A stretch of DNA of 64,000 bases from Sorangiineae bacterium NIC37A_2. GTDB lineage: Bacteria; Myxococcota_A; Polyangia; Polyangiales; Polyangiaceae. Of this stretch, positions 93-52,212 are shown piece by piece. The stretch lies in the NCBI GenBank assembly GCA_002085155.1, contig NASX01000011.1:1-64000 (forward strand), given 5' to 3'. Below the pieces are notes generated by a model that saw only the letters and a list, made by a program, of their open reading frames with translations, searched no databases and was not told the origin of the DNA. The translations under genes and the position numbers were made by a program. Every line of letters begins with the position of its first letter. Within the stretch, counting starts at the first letter, position 1.

Positions 93-1088
93 TCAGGTCC
101 ATTCTTGCGTAGCTCCGCGGCTGAATAGAAACACCCTTGACGCGTCGTACGGGACGAGAAGCCACATTCGCCTAAACCAGTGTTCCTTCTCCTCGGCGCG
201 TTCTTGCAGGAGGGCCTGAAGCGTCGACCATGCCTTCTGCGCGTGCGCGGGCGACAGACGGTCAAGGTTGTCGAGCACCAACACTAGACGTCGCTTCTTG
301 TCGGAAGGCAGTGCTTCCCTCATGGCCCGATCGAAAAGTTCCATGAACTCAATTGTTGTTGGATCTGCGGCGCTAACGGTGATGTTGGATGCCTTTGTCA
401 GCAGGCTACTGTCGTTCTTGATCGATTCCTTCCAGAAGCGTGAGAGAAGCGGTGCCCTGAAAATTCTGACTAACAGGGGGCTTGCGGCAAACAGGATCGG
501 GATCGTGAACTGTGGGTCCGGACATCCCGGGGGCCAGAAGGTAATGGTCGTCGTCCAGTCACGAGGGAGCAGCGCCAATCCGATGGCGGACAAGACCGCA
601 GAAATAGTGAGGAGCTCGCCCCAAGGACTGACGTGCGTTCGGGTTTTCTTTTCGGTCAGGTCCGATCGGATCTGACGCTTGGTATCAGGACTTAGCCAGC
701 GTTCTCGGCTGTCGTTGGCGGTTCCTGTGAGCTGTTCCAGAGTGCTTTCAACAAAACTTCTTCGAAGGGGATCTCCCTCGTGTGCCCAGGAGTCAAATGT
801 GACCATGCGGACATCCAGTTCCCTAGCGGAGCTTGTTGAGCTCAGCTCTTTATGAAGCAACCTGAGGACGGTTGACTTTCCAGAGCCCCATGGTCCTTCC
901 AGACCGACTGCCCTGCCAGCCATCGGCTCCTCGACGAGCATTCTTGCGAGTACCCGCGCCACCTCTTGGTGTGGTCGATAGCCTTCGACACCCAGTGCGT
1001 CGTCGTCCGATGGATCATCAGGGATAAGTCTTGTTGGGCAGTGCCGAGCGGGCGTAACCTCTGCCAAAATCGGGGGTTCGGATGGCAT
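93..1088 (-). pseudogene. KAP-family P-loop NTPase, C-terminally truncated
   Basis: The product is a membrane-anchored KAP P-loop NTPase. Walker A reads EGPWGSGKST about 65 residues from the ATG at 1088, and a Walker B-like stretch LVLVLDNLDRLS lies near the C-terminus. Two hydrophobic segments (LLTISAVLSAIGLALL and FTIPILFAASPLLVRIF) sit between the two motifs, which is the hallmark of KAP NTPases. Family members are usually well over 450 residues, but this frame stops at 93-95 just after LLVPYDASRV, so the second half of the NTPase is missing. Past the TGA the same frame stays open to the window edge and includes KFQMPL, which faintly recalls the family's FQVRF region, so one nonsense mutation could have split the gene. 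Translation could also begin at 1199, but that would overlap the upstream gene. KAP proteins often occur in phage-defence or mobile contexts. Confidence 0.65.
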
Positions 1089-1144
1089 TCGATAGCTCGA
1101 GTGTCTCACTTTGACATTTGTGAACAAGGCTTGCGCCAAACAAG

Positions 1145-1465
1145 CTAAGGGCGCGGGATAGCCCTCCGAACCAGCTCGACCGCTCCGGGAAAGTCGCACT
1201 CGAGGAGCCGAACGGGAATCCGTACGACCCGATAGCCGAGCCGTCCAAGCGCGGCATCTCGACGAGCATCCCGGGCCTCGCGTCCGCTATGCGAAGCGTC
1301 GTCGACTTCGACCACGAGCTTTGGCTGAGGCGCGCAGAAGTCAACGATGTAGAGCTTCTTCGAAGCGTCTCCGAGAAGGACTTGTCGGCGAAAGGCGACT
1401 CCAAGGCGTCGGCTCCTCAGCGCCTCCCAAAGGCGCGCTTCATGAGAAGAGGGGTCATGCCGCAT
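1145..1465 (-). CDS. DUF559 family endonuclease-like protein
   Basis: About 106 residues with the DUF559 fold, a very-short-patch-repair-like restriction endonuclease fold. It begins with an Arg-rich helix (MRHDPSSHEARLWEALR), then the strand pair FRRQVLLG and YIVDFCAP, the catalytic-type segment KLVVEVDDASH, and the closing LGRLGYRVVRIP. The Asp of VDF and the Glu of VEVD fit the metal-binding acidic pair. The start at 1465 was chosen because the frame upstream to 1750 is Arg/Pro-rich and lacks family similarity; no strong ribosome binding site decides the matter. It lies 56 bases upstream of the KAP NTPase on the same strand, so the two may have been co-transcribed. The substrate is unknown; many such genes are orphans dispersed in genomes. 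Confidence 0.7.
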   Translation of the reverse strand: MRHDPSSHEARLWEALRSRRLGVAFRRQVLLGDASKKLYIVDFCAPQPKLVVEVDDASHSGREARDARRDAALGRLGYRVVRIPVRLLECDFPGAVELVRRAIPRP

Positions 1466-4485: not shown

Positions 4486-5542
4486 GTGGGGCTGCTTCGT
4501 CACGCTGGGCTGGGCTGGGCTGGGCTGGGCCGGGCTGGGCCTGTTACTCGCGTTCTAACGCGCCTAGCCAGAAGCGGCAGCGTTTCGCTGAGCGTAATGG
4601 CGCTTCTTCTCGGGTGTAGCGGAGAGGAGGTCAGCGAAGGTGACGTCGAGCCTGTCGAGGCAGTTCGGGCGAACGAACACAGCGCGACGGTTGTTGAACA
4701 GACCTTGAACCTCAAGGTCGAGTTTCCTGACGACGTGAAACTGACCGACGCCTCGGTCATTGGGACTCAGACCCTGACGCTGAAGGATAGAGTTACCCTC
4801 ACGAAGGCGGCGACCTCGAACCGGCTTCTCCTTTCCGTGGGGCTTGACGCCAAGGTCGGCCATCTGCGCGGCGCGCGAGCCATTCAACTCAAAGATCGGG
4901 CGAAAGTGACGGGGAATGTCACGGCTGGAACGACTCTGACGAAGGGGCCGGGGGTTGTCATCACTGGCACGGGCGCGACGAACGTCGCCGCAAATCTGAC
5001 GGAAGTCGCGTGGCAAAGGAAGGCCCCCGAGGTGAGCCTGGGTCCGATCACGCTGAACGCCGAGGAGCGTCGCTTTCTCGAGCCGGGGACCTACGGTAAC
5101 CTCACAGTGCGCTCACGCGCAAAGCTCACCCTCACGACAGGGGTCTACGTATTCCAGAACGTCCTCATTGAGGCGCAGGGCGAGCTGAGCCTCGACAGCC
5201 GGCTCGGTCCGGTTCAGATGTTTGCGAAAGGGACTTTCAACTATCGGGGTAGCGTCGCCTCATTGGGCGTGGAGATGCCCCAGTTCATCGTTGGCTACCT
5301 GGGCACGACTGCGGCGCTCATCGAGGCGCCGTTCACCGGCGCGCTCATCGCTCCGAACGCTGACGTTCGGTTCCAAGCAGCGCTCCCCGAGGGACATCGC
5401 GCGTTCATTCTCGGAAAGAACGTGACGCTCGACGCGGACACGAAGATCCTTCCGTACCCGGTGAACTGGGTGAGCTTGGTCGGGCCCACGCAGTACGAGG
5501 GGCCTCCGGACAACACTCCCACGTATACAATGCCGCGCGCCG
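4486..5542 (+). CDS. Lipoprotein N-terminal part of a probably frameshifted secreted protein
   Basis: Starts at a GTG and carries a hydrophobic export signal ending in a lipobox (VMALLLGC, Cys near residue 44). The next 300 residues are rich in short beta repeats with Val, Thr, Leu and Gly (LTLKDRVTLTK, LKDRAKVTGNVTAG, LTVRSRAKLTLTTGVYVF), then FTGALIAPNADVRFQ. This resembles a right-handed beta-helix or polymer-like domain seen in myxobacterial surface lipoproteins. The frame itself runs to 5652, but beyond about 5540 it becomes Arg-rich nonsense (GDRRRREWRLERR) exactly where another frame takes up a Gly/Ser linker. A five-base tandem repeat lies within the signal region. Function unknown; probably the N-terminus of the downstream protease. 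Confidence 0.55.
4504..4538 (+). repeat. Pentanucleotide tandem repeat (GCTGG)n in the 5' coding region
   Basis: Five perfect GCTGG units, one GCCGG variant and a further GCTGG unit lie in tandem inside the signal-peptide part of the lipoprotein gene. Because the unit length is not a multiple of three, gain or loss of one unit would shift the frame. Confidence 0.85.
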
Positions 5543-8500
5543 GTGAACATCCGGGTGACCTCGACCACCGACGACCTGGGGACCGGAGGCGCAGGGAATG
5601 GCGGCTCGAACGGAGGGGGCTCGGGAAACGGAACGGGTGGCAGCGGCGCTGACAATGGCACGGGCGCGAGCGGAAACTCAGCGGGCGGGACCACCGGCGC
5701 TTCAGGTCCGGGGGTACAAACGGCCACCGAGAAGGTCGATCACCCGGTCAGCTTCAACCTTCCGCCGAAATATCCAGTCGCCGCGGGTACGCTCGCGAAT
5801 GGCACCGTCGACTTCAAGTTCCGAAATGGAAATGGGCCCGAGGTGACTTGTGTGTTCCGAGGTGGCTCGTCGTCCGCCTTTCCCGTGACCCAAGAGGAGC
5901 TCAACAAGGGCCGCACGATGGATTTCGTGAGCTGTTCGGACGGTCTCGGAGTGAATGCGCGAAGAACAGCGACACAGTTCACCTTGACTGTGCACCCGGC
6001 GCCCGACTACCAGGTCTCGATCGTCCCGCCGATGATCAAGGACGGAGGATGTGGCGAGCTGATCGAGCTGATCACCCCAGAAGACACCTACGAAAAAGTC
6101 CAGGGCTTCGACTGGTCTCGCGCGACGAAGCTGCCGGAGACGTCACAGGGTCGGCCGGCGCTTTTTTATGCGTGGGTCTACGTCAAAAGCGAAAAAGACC
6201 TGCTGGCGCTGCGTCAGCTCTACATCCATGTCCTGAAGCGTCCTCTGTTCAGTAGCGAGGTGAGCGCGCTCGACGATCGCTGCGGAACGATGACGAACCC
6301 CGGTGACGGAACCGGCTCCTTCCTTCGCGTCCTGATTCCAGGGGCCACCTACAATAAACTCATTGACGCATTCACCTCGAACGAGGTCGAGGGCGAGAGA
6401 CAGGTCTTCGACGCTGTCGTTCTACAGTCAATCCCCGTCGAAGTTCGTACTCCCCAGAACTCGATCGACCTGAACAAGCTCGCGCTGGCCGGGGTGCGCT
6501 ATCTGGGTTACGAGCCGGACCCGTTTCGAGCCCCGAGCGAAATCACGGAAGACGCCGGAGTCGTGAAACTCTTCGCGGACGCCGTTGCGTGGATCGCGGC
6601 AGCGACGCAGGACTTCGCCTCCGGGATCGGCCGCTTGCTCAATGAGCTCGGCAAGGCGGTCGGCGGGCGCTCCATCCTCACGGTCCATATCCGCGCCCAG
6701 AACCGAGATCCGGGCTTTGATCCCGGAGCGAGTCTTGTGCGTCCCCTCTATCGGGGCTGGGGACGGTACGCGAACACGCCTCTTGGCGCCGAAGGCATGC
6801 AAGTGACGGTCTTGCAGAACCTCGGGTTCATTCCCTCCGAGAGCTACGGGAACACCGACCTGACCGGCCGCGCGGACATCGCTGTGGCTCGCCAGGGAGG
6901 AGTACGGGGACACGGCCTCTGCGTCGAATTCACGACTCCTGCTGCTATGATCACCGACTTCCTCGCTGATAGCAGCGCGTGCGACTTCCGCGAGTGGGAT
7001 CCGGCGGCGGGCGTCTATATCCCAAACTCGACGAGCCTGAACGCGGCTCAGACCCAGGTCGATACGACGCTTCAGATCATGATGGATCACAGTCGACTGA
7101 ACACTCTGTACCAAAGCGACGATGCTTATCAGTACAGCAAGCAAGTCATCGGCTTCCAGCCGAAGCGCGCGCGCATCCTCGCGGGTTCGGCGGGGGGATT
7201 CTTCACGTTGTTCACGCAAGGTGCTCCTTTTGCCCCTTGTTTGAACTACGGGAACAGTTTCTCGGATGCTGCCACGATGACAGCGTCGCTCACGGCAATG
7301 GGCTATGCCTCGGCGCTCGGGCCTGTGGCCGCCGCGCTCGGAGGAACGGCAGCGAGCTTTGTTGCCTCCATGGTCTTCAACACAGACATCGTATTGCCCG
7401 AAGGAACGTATCTCGACGAGAGTCGCGTCGGCGCGACCCATGAATACGGGCACTACCTCTTCTGCGCGCTGATGATGGAGCGGAACGATGCTGCTGTGGA
7501 TCATGTCGTCTGGTCGACCATGTTCGGAGGAAGTGGCTGGGATCGGCCGATTCGCTACATCAACGAAGGCTTCGCTGACTTCATCGCCGGGCAGGTCGCG
7601 GGCGGCGCGAACTATCCGTGGCCGTCGCTACGGAGTGATAGCGACGATCCACTAACGCAGGGCTTCACGAATGGTGGTGATACCTTCGCGTATAGCTACA
7701 TGTGCCGAGCTCCCTTCCCGGAAGATCCGGTCGGTGTGCAGTGGTGCTTTGATACGAACCTGAAAGGAACTCGGAGCCTGGGAGACTCGAGCCTCGAGCC
7801 TGGCACCGAGGGAATCGGCTGGGTAGCGACCTTGCTCCACGACGCCTTCGACGGGAACCCGGCGAACGTCCGCGGCGCCAACACGCCGGGGGACGCAGAC
7901 TACTGGATGCACGCGAGCCGCACGCGTGAGCCGAAGCTCCGCCGCAACGCTGATGGGGGGATCTACCACGATCCTTCTGGCAACACGGAATGTGAACAGG
8001 CCTTGGACTCGGGTGGTCGGCCTCTCTTCGACACGGCGGGAGAGCCGATCTGCCAGACGGAGTTTGTGTACGGCCCCCTCGTCTGGGCGGCAGCTCCTTA
8101 CGGGAACACGGACGGAGACATCGAGAGGGTTTCTCTTCCGGGCCAGGCGATGCTGCAAATTACGGGGCGACTCGCTGACGGCCTCGATCCGATCCTCGCC
8201 TTCACGGAACACCTCGACGAGAGCGTCAGCCTGACCGACAAGAGACTCATCCAGGCGATCGATGCGACCCTGATCGAACACGGGTATGAGAGCTGGTGTG
8301 AGCGTTGTCGCCTCTTCGCGCTCCATAGCAAGAAGCCGGGGCGCGTCTTGGACGAGAGTAACCCGCGCGACCTGCTTCAGACCTGCTGGTCCGACTTCGG
8401 CGATCAGGGCAATCGGTGGATCCAGGGCGGGCCGCCTGATGGACTCGATCGTCTCGACGCTGCGAACTGCGTGCCCTGCGCGCCCGGCTATCGGGCCAAC

Positions 8501-8941
8501 GAGAGGGGCGAATGCGTCGAACAGGTTTGTCCTCCCGACGTGACGCTGCAAGGCTCTGCGCTCGCCGCGACGACGTACTCCTTCGACACGACGGCAGTGA
8601 CCCCGGGCGATCCCTGTCCGGAACAGTTCATCGTCCGAGTCGAAGGGTTCCAGAGCTTGCCGATCGCGCCGACTGAGGAGACCTTGGTGACGGTGCACCC
8701 GATCGATTACGAGACGCCCGAGGCATGTATGCAGATCTACGGCCTCGAACGCATGCTCTCTCTCGGCGGAGTCCGGTCAGAACAGAACTACCAGGCCGTC
8801 CCTACGTACAATTCTTGTGAAGACCTCCCCGAGGGCGATCTGTGCGTCGGGGAGCGCTGCCGAGGCATGCTCGAGGTCAAGACCGCGCCCTTCCAAGCGG
8901 ATCTCGTCGAATTCCGCGTCCGGGCGATCTCGGGACACTAA
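5543..8941 (+). CDS. Large secreted zinc-metalloprotease-like protein with Gly/Ser linker
   Basis: Reading from GTG 5543 gives 1132 residues. The first 50 are a Gly/Asn/Ser-rich linker (GTGGAGNGGSNGGGSGNG), with no signal peptide of its own. A zincin core follows near residues 630-690: HEYGH, then about 45 residues on NEGFADFIAGQV, matching a gluzincin HExxH plus Glu third ligand. The C-terminal third is Cys-rich (CERCRLF, CVPCAPGYRANERGEC, CPPDVTL) with an EGF-like flavour. Lack of an export signal or ribosome binding site at 5543, and the +1 offset from the preceding lipoprotein frame, indicate one protein of about 1480 residues split by a frameshift. It probably degrades extracellular protein; the true family is not recognised. 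Confidence 0.6.
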   Translation: MNIRVTSTTDDLGTGGAGNGGSNGGGSGNGTGGSGADNGTGASGNSAGGTTGASGPGVQTATEKVDHPVSFNLPPKYPVAAGTLANGTVDFKFRNGNGPEVTCVFRGGSSSAFPVTQEELNKGRTMDFVSCSDGLGVNARRTATQFTLTVHPAPDYQVSIVPPMIKDGGCGELIELITPEDTYEKVQGFDWSRATKLPETSQGRPALFYAWVYVKSEKDLLALRQLYIHVLKRPLFSSEVSALDDRCGTMTNPGDGTGSFLRVLIPGATYNKLIDAFTSNEVEGERQVFDAVVLQSIPVEVRTPQNSIDLNKLALAGVRYLGYEPDPFRAPSEITEDAGVVKLFADAVAWIAAATQDFASGIGRLLNELGKAVGGRSILTVHIRAQNRDPGFDPGASLVRPLYRGWGRYANTPLGAEGMQVTVLQNLGFIPSESYGNTDLTGRADIAVARQGGVRGHGLCVEFTTPAAMITDFLADSSACDFREWDPAAGVYIPNSTSLNAAQTQVDTTLQIMMDHSRLNTLYQSDDAYQYSKQVIGFQPKRARILAGSAGGFFTLFTQGAPFAPCLNYGNSFSDAATMTASLTAMGYASALGPVAAALGGTAASFVASMVFNTDIVLPEGTYLDESRVGATHEYGHYLFCALMMERNDAAVDHVVWSTMFGGSGWDRPIRYINEGFADFIAGQVAGGANYPWPSLRSDSDDPLTQGFTNGGDTFAYSYMCRAPFPEDPVGVQWCFDTNLKGTRSLGDSSLEPGTEGIGWVATLLHDAFDGNPANVRGANTPGDADYWMHASRTREPKLRRNADGGIYHDPSGNTECEQALDSGGRPLFDTAGEPICQTEFVYGPLVWAAAPYGNTDGDIERVSLPGQAMLQITGRLADGLDPILAFTEHLDESVSLTDKRLIQAIDATLIEHGYESWCERCRLFALHSKKPGRVLDESNPRDLLQTCWSDFGDQGNRWIQGGPPDGLDRLDAANCVPCAPGYRANERGECVEQVCPPDVTLQGSALAATTYSFDTTAVTPGDPCPEQFIVRVEGFQSLPIAPTEETLVTVHPIDYETPEACMQIYGLERMLSLGGVRSEQNYQAVPTYNSCEDLPEGDLCVGERCRGMLEVKTAPFQADLVEFRVRAISGH

Positions 8942-9389: not shown

Positions 9390-9673
9390 GAGGCCGCTCG
9401 TCCCGCGTTCGATAGGGGCATCCGTTCAGTGACCGAGTATATCCTAGCTCCCGGACGGCGACTTCCATTCGGCTCGGGGACCCTGATAGAACGAGAACGT
9501 TAGGCTCGCGCGGAAGGAGCCGTCCTGAGGGTCCTTCCCCCGCGCGCCTTATCCCCCTGCACTCTCTTCCGCGCACCCTGCCGCCGGTTCAACCCGCCCG
9601 AGCACCGGCCGGAGCGCGGCGGGAGGGGGCAGGGGGAGGCGCGGCCGCAGGCCGCGCCGACAGTGATGGACAG
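9390..9673. repeat. Non-coding stretch ending in a 51-base tandem duplication
   Basis: No gene is recognisable. From 9632 the segment beginning GGGGGAGGCGCGGCCGCAGG is followed 51 bases later, at 9683, by a near-identical copy (GGGGGAGGCGCGACCGCAGG); the similarity runs through CCGCGCCGACAGTG. The second copy lies within the start of the next frame, so the N-terminal 20-30 codons of that frame are probably repeat rather than gene. Confidence 0.6.
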
Positions 9674-10150
9674 ATGAGCGGCGGGGGAGGCGCGACCGCA
9701 GGCCGCGCCGACAGTGGGGAGCAGGTGAACGGAGCGTCTCGGACTCAGGTGAAGGCTCGTCCGAGTTCAGCCGGCCTTACTCGTGCCGGGGCCAAAAACG
9801 GCATATCGAGCACGGCCGCTTTATCGTTGAGCAACGCGAGCGACGAATCGGGCGAAAATGAGCTCGAGGTTCCGAACATTGAGCCGTCACCGCTCCCCGA
9901 GGGGCAGGCGATCTTTCCGCACGGAATTCTTTTCCTCTCAGCCGCGCCGCATGTCCCCGATAGCTCGGCGCCCCCCGCCTTTGAGCGCATCGAAGCGGCT
10001 TGGTCTTCGCACGGCGCGCGCATCACGGGCGACACGAAGACCTCGCTCGGAGAGTGGCTCCGAGAGGATTTCTTCGCCTATCATAAATCGCTCTACGAAA
10101 ACCGGCCGATCTATTTTCCGCTCTCGAGCGAGACGCAGAAGCTAAAAGCC
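9674..10150 (+). pseudogene. BREX PglX-like methyltransferase fragment
   Basis: The recognisable part spans about 9890-10140. It includes SLGEWLREDFFAYHKSLYEN followed by RPIYFPLSSE. A helix with DFF-H and then YENRPIYFPLSS is, as I recall the family, a signature of the C-terminal half of PglX, the adenine methyltransferase of BREX phage-exclusion systems. The catalytic NPPY domain is absent and the frame ends about 25 residues after the motif in an unrelated tail. The first 50 residues are low complexity and overlap a tandem repeat. The fragment is joined directly to a helicase fragment in another frame, which suggests that a deletion removed everything between them. Too short to be functional. 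Confidence 0.55.
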
Positions 10151-10728
10151 GAGTTGGGGGCGGTTTCATTCCCCAGCACCTTGGCTTTGAAGTTTGCCAA
10201 AAGATGGCCCAGGTTCTGACGGAAGACACGCAGTATTCCTTTGTTGACGAGCGCGGCATGGCCGCGATCAATGCATGGCGAAACGATCTCGGGGCGCTTC
10301 TGAGGCGTAGTGCCGATAGTCTTCAGGAGGACGACAGGGGGGTGATATGGTGGACCTTTGCTGGTGGCCGCATCAACCACACGCTCAAATATGCCCTCGA
10401 GTGGAAAGAGAATTGGAAGGTCATCGCCGATAATTTCTCGCTGCGCCTGACCGGAAGCGGCGTGACGCTAGAGCGCGTTCGTGAGGCGCTCGAGAGCATG
10501 CGCTCGGGAGATTTTCTGAAGAGCGAAGAGACCCGAAAAAGGCTGCTCGCGAAGGTCCCCGAGTATCGGCTGAGCAAGTTCCAGCGCGCCCTGCCGCCGA
10601 AGTTTGAGGTGGAGATGGTGGGGGAATATCTATTGGATTTTGACGGAGCGGAGCGCTTCCTGGCTCACTTCCGCGCTTCCCAGGCGGCGCGGGCGTCTAT
10701 GTCGTGGGCGCCGAAGCGCGGGATGTAA
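10146..10728 (+). pseudogene. BREX/Lhr-type helicase C-terminal fragment
   Basis: From ATG 10204 this gives 174 residues, but the same frame is meaningful further upstream to about 10146 (GGGFIPQHLGFEVCQK), so the ATG is fortuitous. The key piece is GVIWWTFAGGRINHTLKYAL, followed by VIADNFSLRLTG and the closing YRLSKFQRALPPKFEVEMV. A WWTFAGG segment, a DN-F strand and a late SKFQ-LP motif are what I recall from the C-terminal region of large BREX-associated (BrxH-type) and Lhr-like helicases. All helicase motor motifs are missing. Its last 64 bases overlap the convergent diiron gene. With the neighbouring PglX-like piece it looks like the 3' end of a deleted defence operon. Confidence 0.5.
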
Positions 10729-11390
10729 TCGCGGGTGAGGGTTTCTTCGAGGGCCGCGGCGTAGTCGGGCGTGGGCATCAAGCCGAAGGCGCCGAGGGCG
10801 GGAGAAGGGGAACCTTCTCTGTGGAGCTCGGAGTAGGCGTAGTTGGTGCGGAGGCGCGCGAACATGTCCGGGAGCATTTCTTGAACGAGGTCACGAACCA
10901 CTCCGCTTTGAGGAGTCGACAGGAGCCACTCCAGAAGGGACCAGCCGAAATCCCTGTGACGCACTTCGTCTTTGAGGATTCGATCGAGGGCGGCGCGAGC
11001 GGCGGGCTCGGTGGCGGGCGCACGCAGCCGAGAGAAGAGGCGAACGGCGACCGTCTCGCCGAGACAGAAGGTCTCGACGCTCGTCTGGACCACAGCGCGG
11101 AGGAGTTCGTCGTCCGGAGGATGACGCAGGCCAATCGTGGCGGGCTCCATGGGGGGAACGCCGCCGCCACCAGCTGCGACGAGGACCGCGTGGCTCAGCT
11201 CCGAGTGGACGAGTTCGTCGTCCACGATCGAGAGGCCTGCTCGGATGAGCTCGAAGGGCGCGACGAGCTTGAGCAGCCAGAGCGTGAGGTGATGAGTAAT
11301 GGCGGCGGAGCGATATTCGGCTTCGACGCGCCGCGTCCATTCTCTTTGAACGAGACGCCGCTCTTCGGGGGTCAATGTGACGGCGTTCAC
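10665..11390 (-). CDS. Ferritin-like diiron-domain protein
   Basis: A 241-residue all-helical protein with carboxylate/His iron-binding signatures: EAEYRSAAITHH in the first helix, IVDDELVHSELSH (ExxH type) in the second, ETFCLGETVAVRLF in the third and ILKDEVRHRDFGW (ExxH) in the fourth. This spacing is that of the ferritin-like superfamily, nearer to the rubrerythrin/AurF-like long-helix oxygenases than to ferritin itself. No signal peptide. The start at 11390 overlaps the stop of the upstream lipoprotein gene by four bases (ATGA), so the two are translationally coupled. Possible roles are an oxygenase or a peroxide/iron detoxifying enzyme; the substrate is unknown. Its 3' end overlaps the helicase remnant on the other strand. 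Confidence 0.75.
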   Translation of the reverse strand: MNAVTLTPEERRLVQREWTRRVEAEYRSAAITHHLTLWLLKLVAPFELIRAGLSIVDDELVHSELSHAVLVAAGGGGVPPMEPATIGLRHPPDDELLRAVVQTSVETFCLGETVAVRLFSRLRAPATEPAARAALDRILKDEVRHRDFGWSLLEWLLSTPQSGVVRDLVQEMLPDMFARLRTNYAYSELHREGSPSPALGAFGLMPTPDYAAALEETLTRDYIPRFGAHDIDARAAWEARK

Positions 11391-15570: not shown

Positions 15571-17835
15571 ATGAACGCCCTCGAAACCGCCCTTTCGCCG
15601 GCAGCCGGCCCGGTTTCTGGCCCCGCATACGGCCAGCTCTCCTGGGAGCAGCTCGGTTGGCAAGAGCCGCCCGTGACCCTCGCTCACGAGGAAGCCCTGA
15701 CTGCTTTGAACGCAGTGGCCGCGGCCAAGGGATACCTCTGCGTGCAGCTCGCGCCCCCCGGCGCCCATTATCGTGGGCGACTCGGGCTCTATATCGAGGA
15801 GGCGATCGAAAACGAGCTCGAGAATCGCGGCGCGTTGGCCCCAGGGATTCAGGCTTCGACGGGTCTGGATGGCTCTCTCGCCGATCAGCTCTACCGCGCC
15901 CGGCTCCTCAACATGACGGGCCTCGCGCTCACGATTCCCGACCTCGAGGGCATCACGAATCTCGGCCGCGTCCTCGACGCGGATGACTCGAGTGTGCTGC
16001 GCTGGTGGTTGGCGGCGACCGCGGATCGCCCCGTCCGTCTGCTCATCCACGAGAAGAACTCGCTTCTGCGCGTTTATCCCGCTCCTGTGCTCTTTGAGAG
16101 CCTGTTCGACCAGAAGCTTCCCGTTTCCCCGCGCGCGCCTTCCGTCGCGATGGCAGAGAGCTCGGAGACGATGGAGCTTTCTTCGCAGCCCCCGAGCGTC
16201 ACCGATACTTCCCTCCAGGGGACCGCGGCTACAGTTTGGGACGGGGACGAGTTCCGGGCCCTCGACCGCGCTCTCGGGATCTCCGAGAGCGTTCAGCCGG
16301 GAGCCGTGGAAGAGCGAGAGCTCGCGGCTCTTCAGCCGTCGCTCTTTGAAATTCCTGCCGAAGCCTCTGCTCTCGAGGCGGACACAGACGTGGACGGAGT
16401 CGTGCTCTCGGGCGAACAACACCTCGAGGAGTTGCTGGAATCGCCCGTTCCTCCGAGCAACCGCGAGACGCCCCACGTCTCTCTCGAGATCAGCAGCACG
16501 GCTCCGCCGAAGAAGGTTGCTCCTTTCTCTCCTTCGGATTTCCTCTCCGCGAGCACTCGCGATCCGGCGGAGGCGGAGTCTCCGCTCCCGACGAGCCGCA
16601 TCGAGCGAGAGAGCTTCTTGCGCGCGCTCGAAGAGGAGTCCTCTTTCGAGCCCGAGAAGGTCGTCGAGGCCGCGCCGGCGCTCGAGACTTCGCCGACGCC
16701 GCTGCCGACCAAGCAGATCTCGGCCGCCTTCGAGGGGGCTCCCGAAGATCGTGGGGAGATCAGGGAGGCTCAGAGCGAAAATGAGCGAGCGACTCTCCCG
16801 GCCGCTCCGGACGAGCTGAGCGAGCTTCCGGTCGCGGTGATCCCGAAATTTACGGCGCCTCCCGAGGAATCTTCCTTCTTGGAGTCAGCGCCCTCGCCCG
16901 AGGCTCCCCCTGAGCCCGCTCGCGAACCCGAGCGCGCACCGGTGCAAGCTGTGGCCCGCAAAGCGCCGCCTGCCCAGGCCGAGATTGGGCCATTCTTCGA
17001 GCTCGCCTCGCGGGAGTGGAGAACCTGGGTCAATAATCTCGACGCTGCGCGAGGACCGAAGCCGCTTTCGGTCATCGAGCGGATGTTTGTCACGGATTAT
17101 ACGCGGCTCGCTGAAGCGCGCCGGCTCGGGATCGCGGACGAGAGCGCGGATGTGGCCCTGCGCGGCTGGCAGGAGTCCTTCGCGCAGAGTTACTCGGAGG
17201 CCTTCGACTCACTGCGCGTGCGCGGCAAGCGCCCCACGATGGTCCTCGATGTGCCGGACATGGCTCATCGCCTCGGCCGTCTCCAGGGCGCGCGCCGGGT
17301 GCAGCTCTTGCTCGTCGATGCGCTCCGTTTCGACCTCGGTCTTCTGGTTCAAGATCGCCTGAAGGCGCGCGCGGACGCGGCGCTCACTGAGCGATTCTTG
17401 CTCTGGTCGGCGCTTCCGACTTGTACCTCGTACCAGCTCGAGCTCCTCGGGAAGGGGGCGGCTGGGCTCAAGGAGACGGGCGAGACGGATGAGCCTCCCG
17501 CGCTCGTGGCGCGGGGGCGAGCGGCGATGACGCCCCGGCGCGTCCGCACGGGTCAACTCGAGATCTACAAGCTCGACGTAGTCGAAGATTCGCTCCGGGA
17601 CATCGGAGAGCCCGTCATCGATCGTCTGCCGAGCATCGCCGATCGCACGGCGGACGCCATCATCGACTTCTTCCAGAAGCAGCCGCCGAAGACGATGGTG
17701 GTTGTGTTTGGGGACCACGGGTTCCGACTCGATCCGAACGCCGCTGGGACTTCCGAGGAAGTTGTGCAAGGTGGATCGACGCCGGAAGAGGTGCTCGTTC
17801 CGGCCTTCGCTTGGCTGACTGGCGCTGTGCACTGA
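15571..17835 (+). CDS. Stand-alone PglZ-domain protein
   Basis: A 754-residue protein preceded by a strong GGGGGG ribosome binding site. Residues 1-190 form a conserved-looking alpha/beta region (VRLLIHEKNSLLRVYPA). Residues 200-470 are a long acidic, Pro/Ser/Glu-rich linker. From about 480 comes the PglZ domain of the alkaline-phosphatase superfamily: VQLLLVDALRFDLGLL (first metal-ligand Asp), LPTCTSYQLELLG (nucleophile region), VVVFGDHGFRLD (Asp-His ligands) and GGSTPEEVLVPAFAW (late His-equivalent loop). PglZ is best known from BREX and from PorX-type regulators, where it can be a phosphodiesterase. No BREX partner is adjacent, and the BREX-like scar lies 5 kb upstream beyond unrelated genes. 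It is therefore probably a conserved myxobacterial protein with its own role. Confidence 0.8.
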   Translation: MNALETALSPAAGPVSGPAYGQLSWEQLGWQEPPVTLAHEEALTALNAVAAAKGYLCVQLAPPGAHYRGRLGLYIEEAIENELENRGALAPGIQASTGLDGSLADQLYRARLLNMTGLALTIPDLEGITNLGRVLDADDSSVLRWWLAATADRPVRLLIHEKNSLLRVYPAPVLFESLFDQKLPVSPRAPSVAMAESSETMELSSQPPSVTDTSLQGTAATVWDGDEFRALDRALGISESVQPGAVEERELAALQPSLFEIPAEASALEADTDVDGVVLSGEQHLEELLESPVPPSNRETPHVSLEISSTAPPKKVAPFSPSDFLSASTRDPAEAESPLPTSRIERESFLRALEEESSFEPEKVVEAAPALETSPTPLPTKQISAAFEGAPEDRGEIREAQSENERATLPAAPDELSELPVAVIPKFTAPPEESSFLESAPSPEAPPEPAREPERAPVQAVARKAPPAQAEIGPFFELASREWRTWVNNLDAARGPKPLSVIERMFVTDYTRLAEARRLGIADESADVALRGWQESFAQSYSEAFDSLRVRGKRPTMVLDVPDMAHRLGRLQGARRVQLLLVDALRFDLGLLVQDRLKARADAALTERFLLWSALPTCTSYQLELLGKGAAGLKETGETDEPPALVARGRAAMTPRRVRTGQLEIYKLDVVEDSLRDIGEPVIDRLPSIADRTADAIIDFFQKQPPKTMVVVFGDHGFRLDPNAAGTSEEVVQGGSTPEEVLVPAFAWLTGAVH

Positions 17836-47919: not shown

Positions 47920-50900
47920 TTAGACTAACAAATTCTGCGCTCCTTCGCCAAGGCCTCTCCTCGGAGGATGCAGCCGTCCTTTTCGCACAGCGGTTTCCAC
48001 CTCGTTTCGAACGAGAGAAGAAGCTCCTTCTCGCTCGAAAATTTGAATGGTGGAGCCCTCGTAAGTGGCGACAAGTCGTCCGCGCGAAAGAACGAACCCG
48101 CGTCCAAGTAGGCGTGGAAGTCGCACATCCTCCGTCAGAACCCCTACCAAGTTCAGGGGATCGACCGCGGAGAGGCTGACGAGCTGGGACTCTTGGCTCG
48201 CTTCTGGGACCTGCTTTCGGAGCAGCGGAATCGCATCAGACAGGGCGAACTGTTCCCCCGGGATGCCTGCCACAAAACGCCCACCGCGAATTTCTCCGCG
48301 GGCTTCGAGCCGATGGAACTCGCGGATGAGCTCCCGATAGGGGGGAAGGTCGCGCTCCCGGGTCAGGAGGGGACGGGTGACCACGCCCCAGCGCCGGAGA
48401 AGGACGCGGCAGAACTCTTCGACGCTATGCGCCGGTTCGGGGTCGGTCTCAGGGCGGAGCAGCGAGATGCGCCCGATGCTCTCGAGTCCGCGGTGAGTGC
48501 CTCGGGCTCGACGATTGCGCCGCTCTCGTTCGGCGGAGCTTTGAATCAAGAGGCGCAATCCGAGGAAGGAATCCGTTGTCACCGCCCCCGCCGCGGCCAG
48601 CTCGCGCAGGGCCGACTCGAACTGGGCTGTTAAGAGCCCTGTCCCTTTCTGGATTTCGAAGGCAAAAGAGGCCCCTCGCTCCTTGAGGAAGGCGACGATC
48701 CGAGACGCGTCCGCTCCGAGCGCTTCGGGCGTCTCGGTGCGCGGCATGAAGGAAGAATCCCGCGGGAGTAAGAGGACCTGCGTCGTCTTCAGGGGCGCTC
48801 GCGCCTTTCCTCCGACGCTGCGCCAGACAAACTCGCCGCTTTGGCAGAGCAGGTCGAGGTAGCCGGGGCTGTAGTCGGCGACGCGCGCGGGAAGGATTTC
48901 CTTCTCCCAGGCCGCGGCTGGTGCGCTCACGCCCTCGAGCTGCAATAGGACCTGTCTCGTTCCTTCGACGCCTCTCTTCTTCGCGCCTTCGGTCACCCCC
49001 TGCCACTCGCTCAAAAAAGCGAGGTAACGAACGATGCTGACGGGCTCGATACGTTTTCGGAGCTCGGTGACGGTTCTCCTGTGGATGCGCGCCAGGATGC
49101 GCCGCTCGCAGAACTCTGTGGCACGAGGGCGATCGGTGCGGAAGCTGCCGCGGAGCACGATGCCTTCTGCTTCCAGCTCTCCCAAGGAAGCAAGCGCCTC
49201 CTCCTCGCTCACGCGGAGGGATTCTGCGGCCTCGTCGGCCGTGATGGGACCGACGATTTCGAGCCGATTGCGAAGCAGAGAGGCCCGCGCGCGGGCCTGG
49301 TCCGCCTCGTCTCTCTGAAGGGGCTCAGGGCGGCGCCCAGTCCAGGTGGCGCCCGGGTGTACCGCAGCGAACTCTTGGCTGCGCTCTCGGGCGACCCAAA
49401 AGACGGCGCCTTTTGCGCTCGCGCGTGACGCGCGGCCGAGCCCTTCGAGGCGCTCAAACCACTCTGTACCCCCGGGGAGCGCCTCACCTTCCTCGGCGCG
49501 GAGGTAACCGTAGAGGCAGAGGGTGTCATGGAGCTCTTCCTCGTCGCGGGGAGCCGGCCAGATCTCGCTCTTGACCTCTTCGATGGCTTCTTGGCTGAGG
49601 GAGGCGGAGCCGAGCTCGGGCCCCGTGAAACGCCTGAGCTGGACCGCCTGGGTCCGCCGCTCCTCGATCGGCGCATCGTCGAGGAACGCGTAGGGGCGAG
49701 CTGTGAGAATTTCATGAGCCGCGGGGGAAGGCTCCGTCACATCGCGTGCGAGCGCTCGGATGCTGCCACCTCTGAGGCCCCGCAGGACCGCCAAAAAACC
49801 TTCCGCGTCCATCGCCTCGTGGAGCGCGTCGAAAAGGGTCTGCTTGACGAGGGGATGATCCGGGATCTCGCGGTCACCTTGGATATTTTCGAGGCAAGCG
49901 ACCTGATCGGGGAAACATGTGGCGAGCAGGTCGTCGGCGTCCATGCGCTGGAAGCGGGGCGGGACCTTTCGTCCCCCGCGGAAGCGCAGGATGGACAAGG
50001 CCCTGGAGGCGTTCCAGCGGAAGCGCGTTTGGAACAAGGGAGCGTCGAGGGTGGCTTGTTCGAGCACCGACAGAGCGCTCTCCGGGTGCAAGAACGAGAA
50101 CAGCTCCTCGAGCGGGAAGGAGTGCATGGGGCCGAGGGAGAAGACAATCGCGTCGTCGCCTGCGGCGGCCTGGAGCTCGACGTTGAAGCTGCGACAGAAG
50201 CGCTTACGGAGCGCAAGGCCGAGAGCCCGGTTGATGCGGGTGCCGAAGGGCGCGTGTAAGACGACGTGCATCCCGTCGGTCTCGTCGAAGAAACGCTCCG
50301 CGATGAGCTGCGTTTGGGTCGGCAGCGCGCCGAGCGCTCGCTTGGTGGCGAGCAAGTAGAGGACCACCTCTTCGGCGACTTTCGGATCGACTCCCGCGCG
50401 GGCGGCGAGCTCGCTCGCAAGTCCGGTGTCCTTTTCGCGTTCGTCCACCCATGCGCGCAAGATGGAAACGGCGCGAGAGAGCTCATCGCTGCGCGCGGGA
50501 GCTTCGCCGATCCAAAATGGAATGTTCGGCGGTTGACCTTGAGCGTCCGCGACCCGGACCACTCCTGGCAAGACCTGCAAGATGCGGTAACTCGAGTTCC
50601 CGAGCTGGAACACATCCCCGCCCATGGCTTCGACAGCAAAGTCCTCGTGGACAGTGCCCACCATGAGATTGTCAGGATCGAGGCGCACCTCGTAGTCGAA
50701 GGAGTCGGGGATGGCGCCACCGTTCGTGATGGCGGTCAAACGAGCGCCGCGACGACCCCGGAGAACGTCGGAGGTCGAGTCGTAGTGGAGATAGGCAGCG
50801 CGCCGTCCGCGCTCGGTGGTGAACCCTTGAGAGAGGAGTTCGACCAGAGCGTTGAAGGTCTCCCTTGTGAGCTCTCTGTACGGAAGCGCTCGCCGAAACA

Positions 50901-52212
50901 GCTCGAACAGGTCGGTGACCGAGCGCGGCGCGGCGGCGACCTCCGCGACCATTTGCTGCAACAGAACGTCGAGGGGCCCCGGGGGGACAGCCGTCTTGTC
51001 GAGGTCGCCCCGGTGGATGGCTTCGAAGAGGGCGACACTCTCGACGAGATCGTCGCGCGAAAGGGGGAAGAGTCGTCCTTTGGGGACGCCGCCGACTCGA
51101 TGACAGGCGCGCCCGACCCGCTGCAAGAAGGTTGCGATACGCCCGGGTGAGCCGATCTGGCAGACCAGCTCGACGTCGCCGATATCGATGCCGAGCTCGA
51201 GGGACGCGGTCGCGACGAGGACCTTGAGCTCTCCGCGCTTCAGGCGCCCCTCCGCGTGGGCCCGGCGCTTTTGGGACAGGCTCCCGTGGTGACAGGCGAC
51301 GGAGCTCTCACCGATGCGTTCCCCGAGGTGGCGCGTGATGCGCTCGGCGAGCCGTCTGGTGTTGGTGAAGACGAGGGTGGTCCGATGCTCAGCGGAGAAG
51401 GCGGCGAGACGGTCGTAGATCTCGTTCCAACCGTCCGCGCTCATGACCGCCTCGAGGGGAAGCTCCGGGGGGACGATCGCGATGTCGAGCTCTCGGGGGC
51501 CCGTCTCGTCGACGATGGTAGGCGCGGGGCGCGCATTTCCGACCAAGAACTCGGCGACCACGTCGACGGGACGTTGGGTCGCGGAAAGGCCAATGCGGCG
51601 CGGCTTTTTCCCGCGCTCGGCGAGGGTCAGAGCGTCGAGGCGCTCCAGGGAGAGGGCGAGGTGGGCCCCTCGCTTGTTCGGGACGAAGGCGTGAATTTCG
51701 TCGATGATGACCTGCTCGACCGTTTTCAGGCTGGCTCGCCCGCTCTCGCTCGTTAAAAGGATGTAAAGGGACTCGGGGGTTGTGATGTAGATGTGGGGAG
51801 GACACTTCGCCCGGCTGGCGCGGTCCTTCATCGACGTATCGCCCGTCCGAGCGAAGGTCGTGATGCGCGCCGGGGAGAGACCGAGAGCTTCGAGCTCGCG
51901 GGAGATCCCAGCGAGCGGCTCGATCAGGTTCTGCTCGATGTCGGTGACGAGCGCCTTGAGCGGCGAGACGTAAAGCACGCGCGTCTCGTCGGGGAGCTGT
52001 CCTCCCGGGGAGCGAAGCCCCTCTTCGATGAGGTCGTTCACCGCGGACAAGAAGGCGGCGAGCGTCTTCCCGGAGCCCGTCGGCGACAGGACCAAGACGT
52101 CGCCTCCCTCTTGAATTTTCGGCCAGGCGCGGGCCTGAGCCGAAGTCGGGCCCGCAAAGCGACTTTCGAGCCAGCGGAGAGTGGCCGGATGAAACGAAAA
52201 GTCGCGCTTCAT
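47920..52212 (-). CDS. lhr: Lhr-type large DNA helicase
   Basis: 1430 residues, the full Lhr length. Superfamily 2 motor motifs are present: Q region TSAQARAWPKIQEG, Walker A VLSPTGSGKTLAAF, motif Ia VLYVSPLKALVTD, motif II DEIHAFVPNKRG, motif III GLSATQRPVD, motif V VATASLELGIDIGDVELV and motif VI FLQRVGRACHR. A winged-helix and beta-sheet core follow, and the C-terminal third carries the Lhr-CTD part with a wHTH tandem (VVTRPLLTRERDLPPYREL, then RGGRFVAGIPGEQFALSDA). Lhr translocates 3' to 5' on ssDNA and helps repair crosslinks; Lhr-CTD has uracil-glycosylase activity in some homologues. A chromosomal copy, not the BREX remnant at 10 kb. Confidence 0.95.
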   Translation of the reverse strand: MKRDFSFHPATLRWLESRFAGPTSAQARAWPKIQEGGDVLVLSPTGSGKTLAAFLSAVNDLIEEGLRSPGGQLPDETRVLYVSPLKALVTDIEQNLIEPLAGISRELEALGLSPARITTFARTGDTSMKDRASRAKCPPHIYITTPESLYILLTSESGRASLKTVEQVIIDEIHAFVPNKRGAHLALSLERLDALTLAERGKKPRRIGLSATQRPVDVVAEFLVGNARPAPTIVDETGPRELDIAIVPPELPLEAVMSADGWNEIYDRLAAFSAEHRTTLVFTNTRRLAERITRHLGERIGESSVACHHGSLSQKRRAHAEGRLKRGELKVLVATASLELGIDIGDVELVCQIGSPGRIATFLQRVGRACHRVGGVPKGRLFPLSRDDLVESVALFEAIHRGDLDKTAVPPGPLDVLLQQMVAEVAAAPRSVTDLFELFRRALPYRELTRETFNALVELLSQGFTTERGRRAAYLHYDSTSDVLRGRRGARLTAITNGGAIPDSFDYEVRLDPDNLMVGTVHEDFAVEAMGGDVFQLGNSSYRILQVLPGVVRVADAQGQPPNIPFWIGEAPARSDELSRAVSILRAWVDEREKDTGLASELAARAGVDPKVAEEVVLYLLATKRALGALPTQTQLIAERFFDETDGMHVVLHAPFGTRINRALGLALRKRFCRSFNVELQAAAGDDAIVFSLGPMHSFPLEELFSFLHPESALSVLEQATLDAPLFQTRFRWNASRALSILRFRGGRKVPPRFQRMDADDLLATCFPDQVACLENIQGDREIPDHPLVKQTLFDALHEAMDAEGFLAVLRGLRGGSIRALARDVTEPSPAAHEILTARPYAFLDDAPIEERRTQAVQLRRFTGPELGSASLSQEAIEEVKSEIWPAPRDEEELHDTLCLYGYLRAEEGEALPGGTEWFERLEGLGRASRASAKGAVFWVARERSQEFAAVHPGATWTGRRPEPLQRDEADQARARASLLRNRLEIVGPITADEAAESLRVSEEEALASLGELEAEGIVLRGSFRTDRPRATEFCERRILARIHRRTVTELRKRIEPVSIVRYLAFLSEWQGVTEGAKKRGVEGTRQVLLQLEGVSAPAAAWEKEILPARVADYSPGYLDLLCQSGEFVWRSVGGKARAPLKTTQVLLLPRDSSFMPRTETPEALGADASRIVAFLKERGASFAFEIQKGTGLLTAQFESALRELAAAGAVTTDSFLGLRLLIQSSAERERRNRRARGTHRGLESIGRISLLRPETDPEPAHSVEEFCRVLLRRWGVVTRPLLTRERDLPPYRELIREFHRLEARGEIRGGRFVAGIPGEQFALSDAIPLLRKQVPEASQESQLVSLSAVDPLNLVGVLTEDVRLPRLLGRGFVLSRGRLVATYEGSTIQIFEREGASSLVRNEVETAVRKGRLHPPRRGLGEGAQNLLV

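Follow-up and report, generated by a model that had tools for sequence, protein, structure and literature searches.

A probable pseudogene scar of a BREX type 6 operon in Sorangiineae bacterium NIC37A_2

About 750 bases in the genome of Sorangiineae bacterium NIC37A_2 are in all likelihood a pseudogene remnant, the scar that several deletions left of an anti-phage operon of BREX type 6; we put the probability of this reading at about 0.9. The scar lies in the window analysed here, that is, the first 64,000 nucleotides of contig NASX01000011.1. In particular, segments of two operon genes, pglX and brxHI, stand in operon order and on the operon's strand, truncated at a junction that they share. 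A first-pass annotation of this DNA had described a BREX-like locus, now refined to BREX type 6, in which a PglX-like tail is joined to the tail of a BrxH-like helicase. Both identities hold, as does the C-terminal position of the BrxHI piece, whereas the PglX piece is internal to its protein and not a tail. The features of the locus, in order along the window, are as follows.

9629-9730, + strand: two imperfect 51-base copies with a GGCGCGGCC-GCA-GGCCGCGCC hairpin, outside the BREX relic; two copies only in the genome.
9740-9913, no strand assigned: lower-GC stretch from the duplication to the start of PglX homology; its PglX frame is open, but no PglX similarity was found.
9914-10132, + strand: internal piece of BREX-6 PglX (FPHGILFL...ENRPIYFPLSSE), matching profile positions 1002 to about 1085 (of 1319) and intact in its own frame.
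10133-10156, + strand: TQKLKAEL, a probable second PglX piece of eight codons from about 60 residues further along PglX, apparently joined in frame.
10145-10158, + strand: junction zone, where a short direct repeat is a candidate for the deletion end-points.
10159-10662, + strand: C-terminal region of the BrxHI helicase (GGFIPQHLGF...LLDFDGAERFL), roughly the final quarter of BrxHI, without the helicase core.
10665-11390, - strand: DUF455-like protein, the right-hand neighbour, alignable with relatives up to 2-10 residues from its C-terminal end.

The PglX piece comprises residues 80-157 of the frame at 9674-10219 (+), an ORF of 181 amino acids, and is recognised by the PADLOC PglX profile with an E-value of 1.1e-16. 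Against the NCBIfam profile BREX_6_MTaseX (NF033455) it matches with an E-value of 2.2e-19 over positions 1002-1085 of 1319 only, scoring 68.5 bits where the cut-off for PglX-6 is 900 bits; in tblastn it aligns over 9914-10150. What the relic has in common with PglX of BREX-6 is a 73-residue stretch, about 45-57% identical to the closest relatives. The relic lacks the methyltransferase core along with the rest of about 1000 residues at the N-terminus, about 60 residues from the interior, and the C-terminal tail. The homology begins at 9914, and the stretch that precedes this point in relatives (VSFAxGVALGRFGANGEGIL) is strongly conserved. Between 9731 and 9914, an HMM search and a profile scan with 8-16-mers found no PglX signal in any of the three frames, none exceeding random stretches of the window.

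The second piece corresponds to residues 20-193 of the frame at 10087-10728 (+), matches the PADLOC BrxHI profile with an E-value of 2.9e-51 and aligns in tblastn over 10159-10662. Rather than a full BrxHI helicase, it covers only positions 528-704 of the 925 in the profile. In BREX, BrxHI is the Ski2-like SF2 helicase and carries an Lhr-like domain at its C-terminus (PMC12839542). The relic's C-terminal region is about 50-59% identical to the closest relatives, whereas nothing remains of the helicase motor, about 540 residues at the N-terminus. Past the junction, all 23 of the 23 columns that are invariant among ten relatives are kept, departures being confined to the junction itself. A further helicase of the window, at 50806-52137 (-), lies outside the relic, is about 30% identical to the motor region of BrxHI, and is perhaps an Lhr-type or ligase-associated DEXH protein.

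The frames of both pieces are free of stops. Because of this, and because the invariant columns are kept, either the deletion would be recent or the piece would be under some constraint, with a product possibly still made; a recent event is the simpler reading. The alternative would mean that the C-terminal domain of BrxH (ORF 10204-10728, 174 amino acids) or the ORF of the PglX frame has been kept as a small functional protein. The open frames and intact conserved positions are compatible with such a role, as is the proposal, made in PMC12839542, that the C-terminal domain of BrxHI is an auxiliary DNA-binding interface. On the other hand, the start codon falls inside the domain, the C-terminus reads into the antisense of the next gene, and nearly all relatives at 39% identity or more lie in open frames of 570-1482 residues, so that a stand-alone family is not evident. 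Retention of either ORF for a function is, in our view, most improbable. The same holds for the idea that expression of the stranded BrxHI domain yields a small DNA-binding protein, which might for example interfere with incoming BREX systems; if this were true, the scar would be retained rather than decaying. As a BREX system the relic is predicted to be without function, as it has no methyltransferase core, phosphatase, BrxC, BrxD or helicase motor.

The two fragments are in different frames of the + strand, as had been noted with a junction at about 10146, and this is borne out by PADLOC and NCBIfam matches far above chance: the fragments meet at 10145-10158. Around this point, relatives of the PglX piece read PLSSEKRSFVA and, some 60 residues further on, ...FAEVQKLLEELNDFI, whereas the window has PLSSE directly followed by TQKLKAEL. 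On a profile of the PglX tail, TQKLKAEL scores 20.2 bits at the later PglX place, a value equalled by none of 20,000 random 8-mers; with KAEL held fixed, 4 of 40,000 8-mers score as well. Given this match, at least two deletions at the junction, besides the loss of the operon front, are probable. Bases 10133-10158 had also been considered as filler, an assignment dropped after comparison with relatives, with 10133-10156 passing to PglX and 10145 onwards to BrxH.

The overlap of these two assignments is informative as to the end-points. Specifically, AAGCCGAGTTGG reads KAEL as PglX and, in a third frame, KPSW as BrxH, one base out of frame; a strongly conserved K-P-S-W precedes GGF in BrxHI, and the window carries one G too many before GGF. 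The two readings can be compatible if pglX and brxHI had about 10-12 bases in common there, which suggests a short direct repeat around AAGCCGAGTTGG as a candidate for the end-points of the deletion between the two genes. Such a shared short sequence is a classical signature of slipped-mispairing deletion. The earlier statement that no target for the end-points is obvious can hence be replaced by a named candidate. This proposal was derived by comparison with relatives that are about 50-59% identical in protein and are not the true parents, which leaves the precise break-points, the repeat and the spare G unproven; the spare G also needs one more one-base change under the shared-repeat reading. 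The in-frame deletion within pglX could have used a shared GAG codon, a weaker case than the repeat between pglX and brxHI.

The original arrangement can be read from intact operons in relatives. In a Polyangiaceae MAG (G030, JABFRG010001241.1) the order is brxC, pglX, pglX, pglZ, brxD, brxHI, and the PglX, PglZ, BrxD and BrxC proteins exceed the NCBIfam cut-offs. This operon (L027:6484-14170) carries two adjacent pglX genes within one BREX-6 operon. The relic has the same segments of pglX and brxHI, on the same strand and in the same order as the type 6 operon (brxC, pglX, pglZ, brxD, brxHI), but has lost pglZ, brxD and brxC together with the greater part of pglX and of brxHI. Loci in five other genomes (G056, G055, G031, G052 and G001) keep pglZ-brxD-brxHI or variants of it. 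Among the 317 genomes of the class in which both pieces were searched, the PglX piece has matches in 30 and the BrxH piece in 36, this genome being counted in each case. In all 18 genomes with both matches on one contig, the two are on the same strand with PglX upstream of BrxH, at a distance of 6,552-22,343 bases (median 7.8 kb), while in the window they touch. At the loci that were inspected, pglX and brxHI are separated by pglZ and brxD on one strand, as expected by the first-pass annotation, which had proposed a protein search with the two fragments; that search returned PglX and BrxHI matches at one locus in relatives, with intervening genes. No family with adjacent PglX and BrxH motifs was found, and the junction was seen in no other genome; the arrangement is not a fusion family.

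A junction seen in a single genome also fits an assembly chimera, in which unrelated reads would have been joined and the true genome would have no junction, or an intact operon. The assembly is a draft of 150 contigs, 98% complete and 3% contaminated, with a spare G within a run of G at the joint and a frame break close by, at about 5540. A misjoin would not be expected, however, to leave a relic of 0.75 kb whose two pieces come from a single operon, lie on one strand in the operon's order and share a short sequence where they join, and the missing core genes that were tested are nowhere else in the assembly. Specifically, neither BrxC nor the PglZ-6 phosphatase has a match at E<=1 in the whole genome, PglX-6 has none elsewhere in it beyond weak hits to general methyltransferase motifs, a genome-wide search found no second copy of the BrxHI piece, and tblastn found no BrxD on the contig (best E 0.19). 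A chimera is very unlikely. No sign of a working BREX system is apparent in the sequence of the rest of the genome; a missing contig carrying one is possible but unlikely, because the assembly is 98% complete. The 754-residue ORF at 15571-17835 was considered as a relocated BREX pglZ and rejected, being only a distant PglZ-domain protein (PADLOC 1.8e-4) and not BREX-6 PglZ; its product possibly belongs to the alkaline-phosphatase superfamily.

As for the surroundings, GC content is 58-60% across the relic against 63% for the window, with the drop at about 9740-9800. It falls from 72-80% at 9501-9700 to about 59% at 9801-9900, and foreign DNA may therefore begin near 9740. On the right, the BrxH homology ends at 10662, where the stop codon of the convergent DUF455-like gene (10665-10667) abuts it, and the BrxH frame continues antisense to that gene. 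When gene order around the flanks (M10 peptidase, DUF455-like gene, SfsA) was compared with that in the available genomes of the genus and family, nothing usable emerged: none of the relatives has an intact operon bounded by this pair of flanking genes, and the flanks are non-syntenic even within the genus. One variant of the relic reading, differing only in where the deletions took place, is that horizontal transfer brought in a piece of another genome's BREX locus in an already degenerate state, so that it would not be the remnant of an operon formerly active in this lineage. The low GC and the flanks not common to relatives would agree with this, as would the same-genus locus of G001, which has a divergent PglZ in a genome without a BREX-6 PglX match. 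BREX operons are themselves horizontally acquired, though, so that low GC fits both readings, and an unsystematic look at the edges of the relic revealed neither an integrase nor a transposon end. Arrival in a broken state is regarded as unlikely, if less so than a chimera.

A 51-base tandem duplication had been reported on the left side. A repeated pair is indeed present, but it is an imperfect hairpin pair outside the relic: the copies are 42/51 identical at best, with strong identity only over about 9635-9670 and 9686-9721, and each GC-rich hairpin has a 9-base stem and a 3-base loop, repeated at 51 bases. Tandem Repeats Finder does not report the duplication, a genome search gave no copies beyond the pair, and no role was found for it. 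It stops about 180 bases before recognisable PglX and was discarded as a target of the deletion, lying outside the homology and having no partner copy.

About 1 kb upstream of the relic there is a second scar, not of BREX origin. The ORF at 5543-8941, without its C-terminal end, runs into an M10-type (matrixin-like) peptidase without its N-terminal part (8922/8931-9389). On contig C84 of the same genome an unbroken 229-residue peptidase paralogue (L067:6296-6985) is arranged divergently from a 1469-residue ORF (L067:1502-5911), which corresponds to ORFs 4486-5652 and 5543-8941 taken as one. The frame break between these two ORFs, near 5540, reflects either a true mutation or a fault in the assembly. 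Taken together, the locus has the look of a site prone to deletion. Near the contig end, at 93-1199 (-), the window encodes a KAP-family P-loop NTPase (PF07693, 1.1e-13; PADLOC matches to PifA/QatA).

Returning to the relic reading, the following history is proposed. An intact operon presumably once stood at the present site. One deletion, or several, would have taken everything up to about residue 1001 of PglX; another would have removed about 60 codons within pglX, joining PLSSE to TQKLKAEL; and a third, which would measure about 6.6 kb if G030 is taken as template, would have run from the TQKLKAEL codons of pglX into brxHI, probably by slipped mispairing at the short direct repeat. The single deletion suggested earlier thus stands as regards the interval between pglX and brxHI, but not as one event accounting for the operon front and the pglX codons as well. 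The deletions would have occurred either at this site or, ahead of a transfer, in a donor genome.

Defence systems are often gained and lost. In the literature, judged mostly from titles and abstracts, no described case of such a scar turned up. The relic is an ordinary genomic scar, unusual only in its clean readability, and it leaves the view of the BREX mechanism unchanged. For annotators, it means that a confident BrxHI or PglX profile match need not indicate a BREX system. A scar with readable break-points shows a step in the loss of a defence system directly, and suggests that this loss was stepwise, through successive deletions of which one fell at a short repeat.
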